From a virus, in IMG/VR virus record IMGVR_UViG_3300043571_000253, positions 1-20,973 of that record: 20,973 nt of DNA; one strand, given 5' to 3'. The translations under genes were made by a program, and so were the position numbers. Each line of letters starts with the position of its first letter. Within the stretch, counting starts at the first letter, position 1. A model generated the notes under the pieces. It did not search any database. It saw only the letters and a list, made by a program, of their open reading frames with translations, and was not told the origin of the DNA. Below, one piece after another: positions 1,062 through 14,200 of the stretch.

Positions 1062-1062
<1 letters not shown>

Positions 1063-3119
1063 TGCCTATCTTACATAAAAGATCTTCTACCCCCGGAGCA
1101 ATTCCACCCGCAACAGGTTTAAGTCTTGGTGAATTGGCGATCAATACAACCGATGGAAAATTATATACTAAAAAAACAGACGATACAGTTGTGCAGCTCA
1201 CTTCAACTCCAGCGGGTCTTATATCGCCCGCAGTCAATGGAGTCTTATCCAGCCCCGATTGGTTACTTTGTAGTGGAACGGTAATTCCACAAAGTTCCTA
1301 TCCAGTCCTTGGAAATTTACTGGGCGCAAACTTTATATCTGCTACTGGAGCTATGCCAGCAACGGCCAACTGGCAAGCGGTTGCTTCAAGTGGTGAAAGT
1401 TCATATGTTGCAGTAGCATTAGGATCTCAATACTCAGCATTGTCAAGCGATAGCGGAAATGTTTGGATTTCTGGAGCATTACCTGTAGTGGCAAACTGGT
1501 CTACTGTAGCTTATAATAGTGGTTCAAACAATTATTTAGCTCTTGCAAATGGATCAAATGTGACAGCTAGATCAGTAGATGGCTCTGGTTGGGTTCAAGG
1601 TTTTGTACCTCCTACCAATCAATTTAATGCTATATCCAGTGGTGCATTGGGTGCTTGTGCAGTAACTCTAGGTCAATACTCTACAACAACAGTTGATGGA
1701 TTCTTGTGGTATCCCGGAGTATTGCCTTTCTCTGGAAACTGGACAGCAGTTGGGTATAATGGATCATTGTATTGTGCATTAGCATCTGGAACTAATAGTG
1801 GAGCTATTTCTACTAATGGATTGAGTTGGTCTGGTATTACGCTTCCCGTTACGGGAGACTGGCAAGCCGTTACAGGTACTGGTACAAATGGATTTTATGC
1901 TATCGCATCTAATGGCACGATAGCTGCTAACTCAGTAAACGGGACTAGTTGGACACAGCAAACTTTACCATTTTCTGGAAACTGGAGAGATATAGAATAT
2001 GGTGGATCAAGATTAGTTGCAGTTTGTGCTAATTCAGCATCCGGTGGATTATCTTATGATGGTGTGACTTGGTATAGAACCGCACTCCCAAGCTTTAGTA
2101 GCTGGTGGAGATTAGCTTGGAATGGCTCTATATTTGCGGCAGTTTCAAGTACGGCAAATTCAACACTTGCAGCGTCTTCTCCTGATGGTTCTGGGTGGAC
2201 CGCTAGAACTTTACCAGCGGGTACAGTTTGGGCTGGTATTGCTTGGAATGGTTCTACATTTTGTGCGGTTGGATTATCGCTTAACGTGGCAACATCTCCT
2301 GATGGGACTGGTTGGATTGGTAGATCAACTGTTCAAAATTCTGCTAAAAATGATTTAGCTTGGACAGGACAAAAATTTGTTGCGACTACTTTTGGAAATA
2401 GCTCTGTGTCAATTTCCCCGGAGGGTACTAGTTGGTTAACAACTACAACAGGCGCTACAAACACTTTTACTTTTATGGCTTCAGATGGAAATAAATATTG
2501 CGCCGTTTCAAATGGCGGTATGCACTCTTGGCTATCAAATGATGGAATATATTGGAGTGGCTATATGATGCCAACGGGCATAGCATGGTGTGCGATAAAT
2601 TGGAATGGTAGTCAATTTTTAGCAACAGCTCAAAACTCAGCTATTTATGCAACATCCCCAAATGGCTCAGTGTGGACATCTAGAACTTTTCCAGTGAGGA
2701 ATACATATCAAAATATTAATTGGAATGGATCTCAATATGCGGTCCCAGCCACACCTAGCAATTTTATAAATATATCAAGCGATGGAATAAATTGGACTAC
2801 AAATTATATGCCTAACTCTAGATCTTGGCATACACTTTCGTGGAATGGGTCATATTATATAGTCCCAGCTCTCTCATCAACACTTATAGCCGTTTCTAAA
2901 GATGGTGAATCATGGAGAGAGCTTAATATAGTTACTGCTGCTACTAACAGCTTGAGGTCTATTCTTTGGAACGGACAGTCTTTTATAGCTTTAAATTATG
3001 GTGGAGATAATTTTATAAAAATAACGCCAGACACTGGAAATTTTCGATTGCCAGCAATAACTACAAATATCGGCGGCTTCGCTTCTGGATATGTTGGCAA
3101 CTACTGGATTAAAACATAA
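1062..3119 (+). CDS. Putative receptor-binding or fibre protein: tail-collar domain split by 13 SxDGxxW repeats
   Basis: 685 residues. Residues 1-46 form a phage fibre-type N-terminal segment (LGELAINTTDGKLYTKK), shared with the next gene. Residues 66-91 resemble the start of a phage tail-collar domain (DWLLCSGTVIPQSSYPVLGNLLG), and residues 655-685 resemble its end (TPDTGNFRLP ... NYWIKT). Between them lie 13 SxDGxxW-type motifs, starting at residues 128, 171, 210, 250, 291, 331, 373, 412, 452, 492, 532, 572 and 612. Spacing is 39-43 residues, and most repeats also carry a WNGS-F strand. The pattern resembles Asp-box beta-propeller blades; the first motif (SSDSGNVW) has the full SxDxGxxW spacing. 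Likely role: a surface protein that binds glycans or host receptors. I see no catalytic residues, so I do not call a sialidase. The start follows a GGAGGA ribosome binding site. Confidence 0.75.
1443..2915 (+). repeat. Array of 13 degenerate 40-residue propeller-type repeats
   Basis: The protein repeat is about 120 bp per unit, with a conserved S-x-(D/N/E)-G-x-x-W core, usually followed six or seven residues later by LP or FP. The units are diverged at nucleotide level, so this is an old repeat rather than a recent tandem expansion. Confidence 0.85.
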
Positions 3120-4264
3120 TGGCAAATACAATATTATACAAAAGATCAAATCAAATTGGGAAAGTTCCAACTGTTAACGATTTACAGTCTGGTGAATTAG
3201 CTATAAATACTGCCGATGGAGCGTTATATTTAAATAATGCAACCATATCTACTCCAGTTGGAACTATACAGGCTGGATATTTAAATTATGACACTAATTG
3301 GATATTATGTGATGGAAAAAAATATTTAAAATTGCAATATCCATCTCTTAGTAATTTTTTAGAATATGAACTTTTTATAAATAATAATATAATAAATCCT
3401 ACCGACCCAATAGCTGTTCAGTCGGCTGCTTCTAGTCCAACTGCCATATGCGTTGGCACATATAGCAGTTTAATATACAGATCAACTGATGGTATAAATT
3501 GGAATAATATAATTCATCCAATAGGTGGTAGATGGAGTACTATGATTTGGACAGGATCTTTATTTTTTACAGGAAGTTCTGTTGGTAATTCTTATATGAC
3601 TTCGCCTGATGGTATAAATTGGACAGCAGGAACAATTCCCGGAGTAACTTCAATATGGGCTATTGCTTGGAATGGCACTATTTTTTGTATCTCTGGACTT
3701 AATACTAATATAGCAAATATTTCAACAAATGGAGTTAATTGGACACCTATTACAACTCCATTAACTTTAAGGTATAGAACTGCTATATCTCTTGGGAGTT
3801 TAATATTACTTTTTTCTGATACTGGAAACCAATACGTTGGGTCTATAGATGGAATAAATTGGATTGCATATACTTTTCCATCTACTTTAGTGGCTAGCAA
3901 TGCAGGTATCTATCCAGTTGTATTCAATAATACTATATATATATCTGGAACCGGAGGATCTGCAAAATCGACTGATGGAATTAATTGGACTATGATTAAT
4001 AATTTTAACGGCAGGTTTATATGTCCGGCTTCAAAATCTATGATATATTTTATATCAAATTTATCTGAAGTATTTTATTCAAAAGATGGTAATAATTGGA
4101 AAACTTTAGGCTATATTAGTGGATATGCAGGAGGAGGTGTTCCTGCGGCATTTGATAATATCCTATATACCGGCACTTTATTTACTTTAAATGCAAATAC
4201 AGACTATTTTTCTACCCCAAAATTAATATATGATAATTCTCAACCAAGATATATAAAAACATAA
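3119..4264 (+). CDS. Shorter paralogue: tail-collar domain split by six SxDGxxW repeats
   Basis: 381 residues, with the same plan as the preceding gene. The N-terminal segment shares KRS and GELAINTADGALY. A collar-like start (NWILCDGKKYLKLQYPSLSNF) lies at residues 60-80 and a collar-like end (YFSTPKL ... RYIKT) at 363-381. Between them are six motifs at residues 122, 162, 202, 242, 284 and 321; four of the six end in DGINW, so this array is more uniform than its neighbour's. One seven-bladed propeller, with the last blade closed by the collar strand, would fit. It begins at a TAATG stop-start overlap with no clear ribosome binding site, so translation probably depends on reinitiation. Base composition is more A+T-rich than in the upstream paralogue. 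Likely a receptor-binding or surface-decorating virion protein. Confidence 0.72.
   Translation: MANTILYKRSNQIGKVPTVNDLQSGELAINTADGALYLNNATISTPVGTIQAGYLNYDTNWILCDGKKYLKLQYPSLSNFLEYELFINNNIINPTDPIAVQSAASSPTAICVGTYSSLIYRSTDGINWNNIIHPIGGRWSTMIWTGSLFFTGSSVGNSYMTSPDGINWTAGTIPGVTSIWAIAWNGTIFCISGLNTNIANISTNGVNWTPITTPLTLRYRTAISLGSLILLFSDTGNQYVGSIDGINWIAYTFPSTLVASNAGIYPVVFNNTIYISGTGGSAKSTDGINWTMINNFNGRFICPASKSMIYFISNLSEVFYSKDGNNWKTLGYISGYAGGGVPAAFDNILYTGTLFTLNANTDYFSTPKLIYDNSQPRYIKT
3482..4099 (+). repeat. Array of six 40-residue propeller-type repeats
   Basis: Motif starts are spaced 40, 40, 40, 42 and 37 residues apart, with core sequences STDGINW, SPDGINW, STNGVNW, SIDGINW, STDGINW and SKDGNNW. Confidence 0.85.
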
Positions 4265-7870: not shown

Positions 7871-8920
7871 ATGTCAAATCGTATTTTTTATGCTGTGCAA
7901 GCAGTTGGAATTCAACCAGACGACACTGGCACAATTAGCTGGATGCACGGTATGCAATCAGTTGGTATTACTACCAATTTTAACCTAGAACAAGTATTCG
8001 AACTTGGTCAATTAGCTCTTTTTCAGAATATTGAAAATATTGCAGAAATCGAAGTTACAACAGAAAGAGTTCTTGATGGAAATGCACTAACATATTTAAC
8101 TGCTGCTAGTTCTGGTAATAGTAGTATTGTTGCTGCTTCTAATCAAAAAGCTGGTGTTTATTTAATTATTTATCCAGATACAAATAGTGCAGCTACTGGC
8201 CTTGGATTCAATGGTCTTGTTTATTGCTCCGGTATGCGCCCAAGCAATATTACATATACGTTCCCAGTCGAAGGCAATTCTACAGAATCAGTAACATTTG
8301 TTGGAAATCAAAAGCAGTGGTCAGATAGCACTTTATTCCCAGCCTTTAATCCATCAACATGGGTTGGAACAGGAACGTATAATAATGGAGTTGTTTACTA
8401 CCCATCTGGCGCAGGATATTATAGCGGTATTAATGAACCTTCTTATGACTCTCCTCTTAATACTGTATTTCGTAGACAACACTTTACAACTGGTGTTGTT
8501 GCGTCAAAAGCAACAGTTATTCCAACTGAAGTTCTTAATGCTACAAATGGTGTAGTATCAAAAATTCAAACTATTACAGTTTCAGCAGATATGGGTCGTG
8601 AGAATATTTTTGAACTTGGTAAATTTTTACCATATGTTAAATATGCAAACTTCCCAATTGCTGTAACTTGTGATTTTGAAGTTATTTCTACAAGTGGCGA
8701 TAGAATGTCATCTAGTGGTGAAAATTATTCGCTATCTGATAGACAAATTATTGTAAACTTTAACAATGGTACAAAAACTCTATCAATTGATCTTGGAACA
8801 AAAAATAAACTTACAAGTGTAAACTATACTGGCGGTGATACTGGTGGGGGAAATGCTACTATGACTTTCTCATACCAAGGATTCAATGCCTTTAGAGTTC
8901 AAACTGGCGTAGTTTCTTAA
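7871..8920 (+). CDS. Major tail protein (tail tube), apparently two tandem tube domains
   Basis: 349 residues. The first half carries QSVGITTNFNLEQVFELGQL (residues 29-48), and the second half carries a matching QTITVSADMGRENIFELGKF (233-252). FELG falls at residues 43-46 and 247-250. In each half this is followed by a diverged matching segment: GVYLIIYP...FNGLVYCSGMRPSNITYTFP at 95-132, against RQIIVNFN...LGTKNKLTSVNYTGG at 291-322. Both halves end in a strand with T/S-F and G-F or Q-W. The FELG-containing hairpin is what I associate with phage tail tube proteins of environmental phages. A tandem duplicated tube domain is known from phage T5 pb6, which forms trimeric rings with pseudo-sixfold symmetry. 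Role: polymerises into the tail tube around the tape measure. Start set by GGAG. Confidence 0.75.
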   Translation: MSNRIFYAVQAVGIQPDDTGTISWMHGMQSVGITTNFNLEQVFELGQLALFQNIENIAEIEVTTERVLDGNALTYLTAASSGNSSIVAASNQKAGVYLIIYPDTNSAATGLGFNGLVYCSGMRPSNITYTFPVEGNSTESVTFVGNQKQWSDSTLFPAFNPSTWVGTGTYNNGVVYYPSGAGYYSGINEPSYDSPLNTVFRRQHFTTGVVASKATVIPTEVLNATNGVVSKIQTITVSADMGRENIFELGKFLPYVKYANFPIAVTCDFEVISTSGDRMSSSGENYSLSDRQIIVNFNNGTKTLSIDLGTKNKLTSVNYTGGDTGGGNATMTFSYQGFNAFRVQTGVVS

Positions 8921-9976: not shown

Positions 9977-10338
9977 TGGATGACTATTCAAATTATATAA
10001 AAAAATCTTTTGATTTAAAGCAGAAAAGGGAAGAACAAAAAAGAGAGCTTTCAAGAGAGAAGTTGTTGAACATCGCAAAAAAGAAAGTTCAAACAACAAT
10101 GATTGGGGCAATTTCTACTATTGAAAATTATTTTGGGTTTTTATGGGATATTGAAAATCCAACTGCTGAACAAAAAGAACTTCGAAATATTTTTGAAGAA
10201 GTGAGGTCTGAAATCCTTGATCGTGGTAACACACAAATGAGGAATCTGGAAAATGAATTTATCAACTATGATATAACATGGAAAAAATATACTATTAATT
10301 TACCGTTTGTAAACAGAGGAGATGACAATAATGTCTGA
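9976..10338 (+). CDS. Small conserved helical protein, possible tail-assembly factor
   Basis: 120 residues. The first 40 are very rich in Lys, Arg and Glu and look like a charged helix (KQKREEQKRELSREKLLNIA). The rest holds MIGAISTIENYFGFLWDIEN (residues 42-61), EVRSEILDRGNTQMRNLENE and a C-terminal WKKYTINLPF. I recall the combination FGFLW ... R-x-x-(I/V)LDRGN-x-Q-x-RNLE from other environmental phage genomes, always uncharacterised. It sits between the tube and tape-measure genes, so an assembly role is an inference from position. It has a strong ribosome binding site (GAGAGGGA) and a TAATG junction, and it overlaps the next gene by eight bases. Confidence 0.55.
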   Translation: MDDYSNYIKKSFDLKQKREEQKRELSREKLLNIAKKKVQTTMIGAISTIENYFGFLWDIENPTAEQKELRNIFEEVRSEILDRGNTQMRNLENEFINYDITWKKYTINLPFVNRGDDNNV

Positions 10339-11185
10339 GGAATATAGAGAAATAGTGGAAGGCGAAGTTAAAGTTCTTGTAAAGAAGCCAACAAGAAAAG
10401 ATTATAACCAGTCTCAAATTGTTTATAATAAAGTTTGGGCAGAGTGCTTACAAAAAAATGCTTATTTAAGACAAGAACTTAATGATATTCTTGAGAAAAA
10501 GGGATTGTGGAGCAAGGAAAAGCAGGAAAAATACGATCAATTTATTCAGAAGATTAATAATCTTGAATTAATTCTTAAAAAGGGTGGAATCCCATTAAAG
10601 AAAGCAAAGTCAATAGCTATTGATCTTAAAAATACAAGAGAAGAGTTTAGAGATTTAATTTCAGTAAGAACAGCTTACGATAATAATACCGCAGAAGGAA
10701 CTGCTGATAATGCAAGATTTGACTATCTTGTTTCCGTTTGTGTTCTCGATCCATCAACTAAATCTCCTGTATTCAAAGATATAGAAGACTATAATGAAAG
10801 AGGAGCAGAACCTTGGGCCGTAAAAGCTGCTGGTGAACTTGCCAACTTGCTTTATAATCTTGATCAAAACTATGAAAAAAATCTTCCAGAAAACGACTTC
10901 TTGAAAAAGTTTAAGTTTGTTAATGATGAAGGAAGGTTAGTTAATAAAGATGGTCATCTTATCGCTATTGATGAAGATGGTGTTGAAAGATTAATCGATA
11001 AGGATAACTATTTTATTGCTTATGATGAAAATGGAAAATCATATAGAGTCAATAAAAATGGAGAGCCTACAGAAGTTGAACAACTGCCATTTACAGATGA
11101 CGATGGCAATCCAATTAATGATGAAGCTGCTTCACAAGAAGAAGCCAAAAAAACTAAAAAAAAGAAAGACAATCCTGCTGAATAA
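10331..11185 (+). CDS. Putative tail-assembly chaperone-type protein with C-terminal DG repeats
   Basis: 284 residues from the ATG at 10331. I prefer this start to the in-frame ATG at 10322 because AGAGGAG (10315-10321) abuts 10322 but lies nine bases before 10331. The N-terminal 180 residues are helical and charged (VLVKKPTRKDYNQSQIVYNK, NTAEGTADNARFDYLVS). From about residue 195 comes a small repeat region with a (V/I)-(N/D)-K-(D/N)-x theme: LVNKDGHLIAIDEDG, LIDKDNYFIAYDENG, YRVNKNGEP. The end is acidic and then Lys-rich. It is the last gene before the tape measure, where tail-assembly chaperones of siphophages and myophages normally lie. An A-AAA-AAG heptamer occurs at 11158-11164, but the shifted frame stops within six codons, so I see no gpG/gpGT-type fusion. 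Confidence 0.55.
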   Translation: MSEEYREIVEGEVKVLVKKPTRKDYNQSQIVYNKVWAECLQKNAYLRQELNDILEKKGLWSKEKQEKYDQFIQKINNLELILKKGGIPLKKAKSIAIDLKNTREEFRDLISVRTAYDNNTAEGTADNARFDYLVSVCVLDPSTKSPVFKDIEDYNERGAEPWAVKAAGELANLLYNLDQNYEKNLPENDFLKKFKFVNDEGRLVNKDGHLIAIDEDGVERLIDKDNYFIAYDENGKSYRVNKNGEPTEVEQLPFTDDDGNPINDEAASQEEAKKTKKKKDNPAE

Positions 11186-11284: not shown

Positions 11285-14200
11285 ATGGCTTCAAAGTTTA
11301 CCATTACTGCTGAATTAAACTTACAAACTAAAAATTTAAATCAGGTCGTTAACAATCTAAGGCAGCAGTTTCAAGGGGCCAACCTAAATATAAAACTTAC
11401 GAATTTAGCTCAGGCTAACTCTCAAATGGTTAACTTGTCTAAAAATAGTGCCGCAGCAAAAAAGTCTGTTGACTCTTTGGGTAGTAGTGTTTTAGCCGCC
11501 GCTAAAAGATTTTCAGGCATGGCACTTGCAACGGGAACTCTTATTGGTTTAACTAGAGCTATTAAAAATGCAGTTGGCGAAGCAATTGAATTTGAAAGAG
11601 AAATGGTGAAAATTTCTCAGGCTACTGGGAAAACAATGAGCGATTTAAAATCCTTGTCTAGTGAAATTGGAAATGTAGCTTCAAATTTTGGAGTATCTTC
11701 TAAAGAGTTAGTTTTAGCAGCAAGAGAATTAACACAAGCCGGATTTGCCGCTGATAAAGTTAGAGGAACATTAAAGCTATTAGCACAAACAGAATTAGCT
11801 GCTACCTTCGATTCAATTCAAGACACAACAGAAGGCGTTATCGCTGTTCTTAATCAGTTTGGTAAAACTGCCCAAAGAGCAGGAACAGAAATAGATTTCT
11901 TAGAAAAATCTTTATCTGCTATTAATCAAGTTTCTAAAGATTTCGCTGTTGAATCGGCGGACTTAATTACAGCAATTAGAACAACTGGTTCTGCGTTTGA
12001 AAGCGCTGGTGGTAGTTTAGATGAACTAATTGCACTGTTTACATCTGTACGCTCTACGACTCGTGAATCAGCAGAAAGTATCGCTACAGGATTTAGAACA
12101 ATTTTTACTCGTGTTCAGCGTGTTGACACTATAAATGCACTTAGAAATCTTGGTATAGAACTTCAAGATGCAGAGGGAAAATTTGTCGGTCCAATGGAAG
12201 CCGCTAAAAGGCTAGCAATTGCTTTACAAACTATAGATCCAAGAGATTTTAGATTTAATCTTGTAGTTGAAGAGCTTGGTGGATTCCGTCAAGTTTCAAA
12301 AGTTATTCCTCTTATTCAACAGTTTACAGTTGCACAAAAAGCTCTTAGCTCTGCTCAAGGCGCGAGTGGCTCACTAGCAAAAGACGCCGCAACTGCACAG
12401 CAATCACTATCAGTTCAAATAGATAAAACTCGTGAAGAGTTTAAGAGATTTATAAGAGAATTGACAGATAGTAAATCGTTTCAAGATACTGCAAGATTTT
12501 TATTAAGTTTAGCAAATGCCTTTATAAAAGTTGCAGATACAATAAAACCTCTTATTCCACTTATTGCTACTTTTGCAACCTTTAAATTAGGTCAGGCTTT
12601 TATTCCTGCAATTAAAGGTTTAGGTTCTATTGGCAAGAAGTCTCTTGGCGGACCTATTGGATTTGCTAGCGGTGGAATGGTTCCCGGACAAGGAAATGGA
12701 GATACTGTTCCGGCGATGCTTACTCCGGGCGAATTTGTAATACGCAAGAGTTCTGTTGAAAAATTAGGAGCGGAAAATCTTGCGAGAATGAATAAATATG
12801 CTGCTGGAGGAAGGGTTACTATTTTTCCAAAATCAAATAAATATGGAGTATTTGCTCTTCAACCACTTGGAGCTAAAGATGATATTTTAAGAGGAAAAGC
12901 TAAAGTAAAAAATAAAAGCGTAGAAGCTCAATTAGCAGCTATGGCAAAAAACCCAGACGCTTCTGTTGAAATTGCAGCAGACGATACTTATCAAGTTCCA
13001 GCATTTTATATTGGTGGAAATGATGCTGAAAAATCTCAGGCAATGAAAAAAAGAATTGAAAAAGTTACTAAGGCGGGATTTAAAAAAATAATTTCTACAA
13101 TTATAGAAACTCCTGATTTTAGTCTTGGAAGTCCACCTTTAAAAACAGATCAGTCATATTTTAATAGTGCAATTAAATCTCTTTTTGAAAAAGATAATAG
13201 CGCCAAAGCTACAATCGAAGGTTACGTTCTAGAAGCAGTTACAGCTTCTCTAGGCCAAGTTAAATTAGGCGGAGGAACTTCAAATTGGGACTTTCCTAGT
13301 TTGGGTGGTAAAGGAGAAAAATTATCGCAACTGTTTGGATTAGATAAAGCAGGTTTAATTTCTTCTTTAATTAGTGGAGACGCCAAAAGATCTATATCAG
13401 ATAAAGCTATACGAAGCGTTTTAGGAACAAAAATTGCAAACTCTTTATTACAAGATCGAAGCCAAATTGGACTTACAAAGTATGATCAAACCGGCGCAGG
13501 AGTTAAGATTGAATCAAGCAAGGCCGTAGCAAAAAAACAACAAGCCCAAGTTAAACAATCTAGCCTAAAAGGAATGCAAGCGCAATCAGAGGAATTTAGA
13601 AAAAAAATAGTTGAGATTGCAGGCGAATATTTTAATTTTGCTAAAGATCCTAATACTGGCTTACAAGCAAGTAGATTAAATCTACAAAATTTTGGAGCTG
13701 GTGCTACTGATTTAGTTAAAGGTATTTTAGGACCAGATATGAAAGGAAAATTTGGTAAAAATGATTTTTCTTTAAGTGAAGCCGAACAAAAAAAAGTATT
13801 AGACCAACTAAAGAAATGGCGGGAAGGATCTCCTCCTGTAAGTTTATTAAAATCAGCTCTTGGCGGAATAGTGTCTCGTTTTGCAGAAGGTGGTGGTGTA
13901 AAAAACGCCCCTCTTGTTGATGATATTCTACAGGCTACAGGAGCCATTTTGCCCCATCCAGTAAAGGCTATTCAGGCAATCATTGATGCTGGTGGCGGCG
14001 CAGTTGATATGGATCGCACGCTAAAAAGAACAATTGGTGATCAGGCATACGCAAAAGCCCCTACAAAAAAAGCTCAGGCAGAAGTTCTTAAAAGATATTT
14101 TAGAGATGATGCTGCAAGATTAGCAGATGTAAAATCAGCGCCCTTGACACAGTTTGGAAAAGCATTAAAAGACGCTGTTGAAAGTGGTCAAATTAATCCT

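Follow-up and report, generated by a model that had tools for sequence, protein, structure and literature searches.

A viral tail tube protein with two tandem tube domains that probably assembles as trimeric rings

The virus record IMGVR_UViG_3300043571_000253 from IMG/VR encodes, in the 20,973 nucleotides that we analysed (positions 1 to 20,973, hereafter the window), a 349-residue protein that an earlier note, made from the letters alone, had taken for a tail tube protein built by internal duplication and predicted to form trimeric rings. Does one chain of this protein really hold two tube domains, and would three such chains then close a ring? The open reading frame (7871-8920, plus strand) was as claimed, and the motif FELG, from which the duplication had been read, occurs at residues 43-46 and 247-250, inside the quoted segments 29-48 (QSVGITTNFNLEQVFELGQL) and 233-252 (QTITVSADMGRENIFELGKF). 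However, a motif of this size is within chance in the single sequence: 867 of 2000 composition shuffles produced some 4-mer common to residues 1-210 and 211-349, and 377 of 2000 reached the best ungapped 20-residue identity between the halves (8). FELG identity was therefore discarded as stand-alone proof of a repeat, and the duplication had to be sought in the family and in predicted structures, where it was indeed found.

Relatives were collected from viral contigs in three scans, which gave two loci with the single sequence, 15 with a 2-row profile and 188 confirmed relatives with a 12-row profile; the best 80 of the 188 were kept, and once identical rows had been dropped, together with one that a contig end had cut short, 73 rows remained for the alignment. 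Both halves of the protein are present in all 73 relatives, and the patterns of the 2-row and 12-row scans sat in the N-terminal half, so that the C-terminal half was not needed for recovery there. At the first site the motif is FELG in 48 rows, FQLG in 17 and YQLG in eight, so [FY][EQ]LG holds in 73 of 73, and at the second site Leu-Gly is kept in 71 of 73 (FELG in 29), the remaining two reading NEIG and FEMG. When the 73-row profiles of the N-half (1-155) and the C-half (215-349) were compared with hhalign, the score was 45.1 (P 5.3e-7) vs a best of 27.5 among 100 column-shuffled controls; the match pairs residues 26-65 with about 230-268, approximately 39 columns, which span just the motif-bearing loop and the two strands that flank it. 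Half-profiles of 12 rows scored 33.6, where 30 shuffles gave at most 22.9, and a global alignment forced on the two halves (117 columns) came out poor (probability 47%). Judged from these profiles, the repeat between the halves is beyond chance once the family is used.

An AlphaFold2 model of the monomer, predicted from 12 rows, had a pTM of 0.74 and a mean pLDDT of 65.5, with values below 50 in stretches that include residues 37-58, 154-196 and 244-253, and low values also at 257-260. The corresponding strand patterns claimed for the two segments were present in this model (strand 28-36, loop, strand 59-67; strand 232-240, loop, strand 264-273). Among the matches listed by VIA-align, which do not thereby exclude families that go unlisted, the top one was the P74-26 tube chain 8ed0_A (Z 17.6, rmsd 4.0, 275 residues aligned over model residues 5 to 349, 10% identity), and the T5 tube chains 9iny_A (Z 16.7, 279 aligned), 7qg9_A (16.3) and 5ngj_A (13.6) also stood high, as did SH-Ab15497 8xan_A (16.3), the DT57C entries 8hqz_p and 8hrg (15.2) and the T5 tip chain 9ioz_A (14.6), which by its length and title we take to be T5 p140. 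HFTV1 9fkb_BA followed with a Z of 9.7, and in the rows after it nearly all entries were tubes of one domain, or tube-like proteins, that covered model residues 1 to about 155.

Because a single domain can fill the match list of a whole model, residues 212-349 were also predicted alone (73 rows; pLDDT 79.3, pTM 0.73). The best Z for this C-half was 8.1, for phiCD508 9gb2_Y (116 aligned) and PlPVC1 9qgl_1A (120 aligned), and the 50 matches listed were by title tube, neck, cap, baseplate or Hcp proteins, with alignments spanning most of the model. These Z values are middling, but their consistency and coverage appear unlike those of a chance arrangement. The chains 8gtb_A, 8q01_A and 6toa_G fit both the N-half and the C-half, and since the C-half also folds whole, each FELG can be assigned to its own domain, where it sits in the long loop. 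The chain thus has two complete tube domains, going by the whole model and by the C-half, and their arrangement in the predicted monomer is that of the T5 and P74-26 tubes, on which it superposes in one alignment (275-279 residues, rmsd 4.0). The claim of a tail tube protein made of tandem duplicated tube domains was in this way upheld by profile comparison, by end-to-end superposition of the monomer and by the C-half folding by itself. The further claims needed qualification: the first half is longer, chiefly by an inter-domain linker (about residues 154-215), and the supposed Gly/Tyr-rich insert at about 150-210 is only mildly enriched (G+Y 21% vs 14% outside residues 154-215) and is mostly this same linker, which is variable in the alignment except for R202, invariant in 73 rows. 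Coordinates are collected in Table 1.

Table 1. Features of the tail tube locus in the window and second tube copies in related records. Neighbour counts are over 72 tube loci, many of them cut by contig ends.
Feature	Coordinates	Strand	Basis
Upstream neighbour, 325 aa	6829..7806	+	Homologue in 72/72 tube loci; no family match; putative tail terminator by position
Two-domain tail tube protein, 349 aa	7871..8920	+	Open reading frame; model and fold matches
Tube domain 1, about residues 1-153	7871..8329	+	Single-domain tubes align to model residues 1 to about 155
Long loop of domain 1, residues 37-58, FELG at 7997-8008	7979..8044	+	pLDDT <50, between strands 28-36 and 59-67
Variable inter-domain linker, residues ~154-215, mildly Gly/Tyr-rich	8330..8515	+	pLDDT <50 at 154-196
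Tube domain 2, about residues 216-349	8516..8917	+	C-half alone aligns to whole single-domain tubes
Long loop of domain 2, residues 241-263, FELG at 8609-8620	8591..8659	+	Low pLDDT at 244-253 and 257-260
Downstream neighbour, 346 aa	8936..9976	+	Homologue in 60/72 tube loci; putative tail assembly role by position
Downstream neighbour, 120 aa	9976..10338	+	Homologue in 58/72 tube loci; putative tail assembly role by position
Tape measure protein, 2899 aa	11285..19984	+	phrog_4211 E 2e-28, phrog_28 E 2e-25, tail length tape measure
Dispersed second copies, far from tail cluster	L112:5269-6327; L113:5738-6853; L137:2038-3189; L138:2642-3514; L139:2938-3930		Beside PhoH-like gene
Adjacent second copies	L057:5969-6817; L069:5968-6828; L075:5989-6846; L080:5967-6827; L085:5968-6828		Directly downstream of main tube

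Judged from PHROG matches and conserved neighbours, the gene stands a little ahead of genes for tail assembly and for the tape measure. By position only, the 325-residue neighbour would be a terminator and the downstream neighbours would be chaperones; the count for a further neighbour of 287 residues (10322-11185) was left unused, as its locus count and offsets were identical to those of the 346-residue one, probably through profile drift or kinship. Pfam and PHROG searches with seven neighbours, tested as single proteins, gave no usable names. A 77.7-kb record (G001) carries the same tube gene and, in the stretch read beyond the tape measure gene, large genes of 1206, 697, 1032 and 573 residues. 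The sheath family PF04984, the one family sought, was not found in either of the two longer records searched (G001 and G002), which may be incomplete.

Two other regions of the window were noted in passing. The tape measure protein has four near-identical copies of the motif DTVPAMLTPGEFV, at window positions 12701, 14402, 15509 and 19115, and matches phrog_35029 in four stretches. The genes at 1062-3119 and 3119-4264 encode adjacent proteins with similar starts and W-N/T-G repeat units (seven and two counted), which suggests propeller-like repeats; the N-terminus of the 3119-4264 product matches tail fibre families.

The single sequence of the tube protein matched, in Pfam and PHROG, only phrog_985 (E 2.4e-4, residues 28-85), a virion structural protein family of 141 positions. 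This family resembles domain 1 weakly (19 of 73 members at E <=0.01, best 2.1e-4) but is one domain long, and only one of 73 C-half fragments matched it (E 0.044). Pfam over the 73 members found Phage_tube_2 in two and STN, probably spuriously, in three. No match was returned by tblastn against 50,697 phage records for the tube protein of the window, for the tube of one relative (L078) or for a second copy, and neither phmmer nor a profile search turned up a tube among PDB sequences. Searching predicted viral proteins by structure brought 55 matches at E <=0.001, including the Gordonia phage Kampe major tail protein and the Caulobacter phage Sansa tail subunit; most of those listed have 290-410 residues. 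The terminase of G002 reached approximately 25-30% identity at best to phage records, the longest match being to Microcystis phage MaeS. One relative (L101) came from a record labelled 'Heimdallarchaeota chromosome', and was not accepted as a provirus: 100 consecutive N bases (L101:7588-7687) separate its tube-family tail genes from cellular-looking genes, and the join looks like a scaffolding artefact.

How close is this protein to the tubes that are known in detail? The tube domain of T5 pb6 is described as tandem-duplicated and its rings as trimeric and pseudo-hexameric, and the long loops that link strands 3 to 4 and 13 to 14 as unresolved or flexible in the crystal, their deletion impairing tube formation (PMC5717097). 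T5 had been put forward as the established case of a duplicated tube, and it is one, but not the only one: the rings of P74-26 are likewise described as trimeric and pseudo-hexameric, with a Loop1 that stays flexible until rings stack (PMC10034513), and three-fold symmetry has been reported for the phiCbK tube. For the SH-Ab15497 tube (8xan), a literature search on the phage name yielded, by title, no tail-structure paper giving its symmetry. The P74-26 tube protein, the best structural match, shares with ours two tube domains, a linker and nearly its length (348 vs 349 residues); however, identity in the structural alignment is as low as noted above, no profile match appeared among PDB sequences, and the trimer is known for P74-26 but would here follow from the arrangement that the model has in common with trimeric tubes. 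T5 pb6 (5ngj, 9iny) and that of DT57C (8hrg), described as a T5 relative, also have tandem tube domains and long loops and match over both domains (Z 13.6-16.7), but pb6 has, by its description, a C-terminal Ig-like domain for which the present protein has no room, as domain 2 reaches residue 349 of 349; this Ig-like domain is reported to be missing from some T5-like tubes. The 73-row profile showed no detectable similarity to the single pb6 sequence (hhalign probability 0.1%) and no sequence match to T5 p140, a test that is insensitive, because pb6 and p140 compared as single sequences are equally blank.

T5 p140 is described as having the two-domain tube fold and as trimeric, and is said to stem from duplication of the tube gene, but it forms one ring at the tail tip and is a better analogue of a second set of genes that we found in relatives. 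Among 27 long records, chosen for length and not at random, the 73-row profile located a second, diverged two-domain tube gene in ten, the remaining 17 having one tube place each. The second copy lies directly downstream of the main tube gene in five of them (G006, G014, G017, G028 and G029). In four others (G001, G002, G003 and G011) it lies between genes that we take to be ribonucleotide-reductase-like and PhoH-like, with a small extra gene between the reductase-like gene and the tube copy in G002, and in G012 it lies beside the PhoH-like gene, with no reductase in the 7 kb read; four of the five dispersed copies thus follow the reductase-like gene. The same two flanking genes occur in G004 and G007 without a second tube copy.

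In a 42-row tree, a single clade (100/100) united the adjacent copies and joined the main tubes from the phages that carry them. The dispersed copies fell on one side of another well-supported branch (100/100), with warnings of long branches (4.47 for the copy in G003) that leave the exact place of the second copies in the tree unsure. This suggests two origins. Profiles of the dispersed copies matched those of the main tubes half by half (N-N P 2e-12, C-C P 4e-14), as did those of the adjacent copies (N-N P 1.5e-37, C-C P 6e-36), and since cross matches were far weaker, fusion of the domains predates these gene duplications. In the T5 record a 298-residue tail gene, taken to be p140, directly adjoins pb6, and by this analogy the likeliest role of the second copies may be that of a p140-like end ring. 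Tentatively, and with confidence falling a little short of even, we propose that these phages have two kinds of tube protein, of which the second arose at least twice (once adjoining the main tube gene and once alongside phoH, mostly behind a ribonucleotide reductase gene) and forms a three-fold end ring like p140. Such a ring has been described as marking large T5-like phages alone, and a literature search on tail tube duplication with phoH and ribonucleotide reductase surfaced only a Campylobacter phage work.

The 349-residue protein itself is, very probably, the major tail tube protein of a long and probably non-contractile tail, with two tandem tube domains and three copies to each pseudo-hexameric ring, the rings being stacked. 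Two tube domains (about residues 1-153 and 216-349) are, by the models, fused in tandem through the variable linker. Three copies would close a pseudo-hexameric ring, and the tape measure protein, whose gene lies 2.4 kb downstream, would run through the stack of rings. Each domain's long loop, with its conserved Leu-Gly turn, would be flexible in the free monomer; on assembly it would lock onto adjacent subunits and onto the following ring, in the manner of T5 and P74-26; because the FELG loops occupy the same inter-strand place as the loops of those two tubes and have low model confidence, we infer the same role for them.

Three other readings were weighed. A protein with this architecture could instead form one trimer in a tip or baseplate ring, another protein making the tube, since T5 p140 and the HFTV1 baseplate-tail connector are described as having the same two-domain trimeric organization and the T5 tip chain matches the model well (Z 14.6). 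We think this unlikely: the best structural matches are major tube proteins, the gene stands just ahead of the tail assembly and tape measure genes, no other tube-like gene was recognised in the window (where the neighbours were judged by sequence), and the second copies of relatives are better candidates for a tip ring. A genuine hexamer, decorated on its outside by domain 2, would agree with the extra outer domain that many tube proteins are described as carrying, such as the Ig-like domain of pb6; it is nonetheless an improbable reading, less favoured than the tip ring, as domain 2 makes a whole tube domain in its own right and both domains together fit trimeric tubes as one unit over 275-279 residues (rmsd 4.0).

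The lone sequence, in which the repeat lies within chance, would even allow a single tube domain with both FELG hairpins in one beta-sandwich and the repeat fortuitous, an outcome that the earlier note had named as fatal to its proposal. The models exclude this arrangement, and it is contradicted as well by the family profile, by fold matches over the whole length and by the C-half folding by itself, which makes it scarcely credible. A major tube of stacked trimers, a preference over a single tip ring that draws on structural matches and gene order, is the reading that we retain.

The architecture is already known from T5 and P74-26, and what the 349-residue protein adds is a family for which no isolate was found here. 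With it, tail tubes that have two domains per chain and are probably trimeric, known from a few studied phages, are extended to a large uncultured group, and the second copies in its relatives form a natural series in which to ask how a tube gene turns into a specialised end ring.
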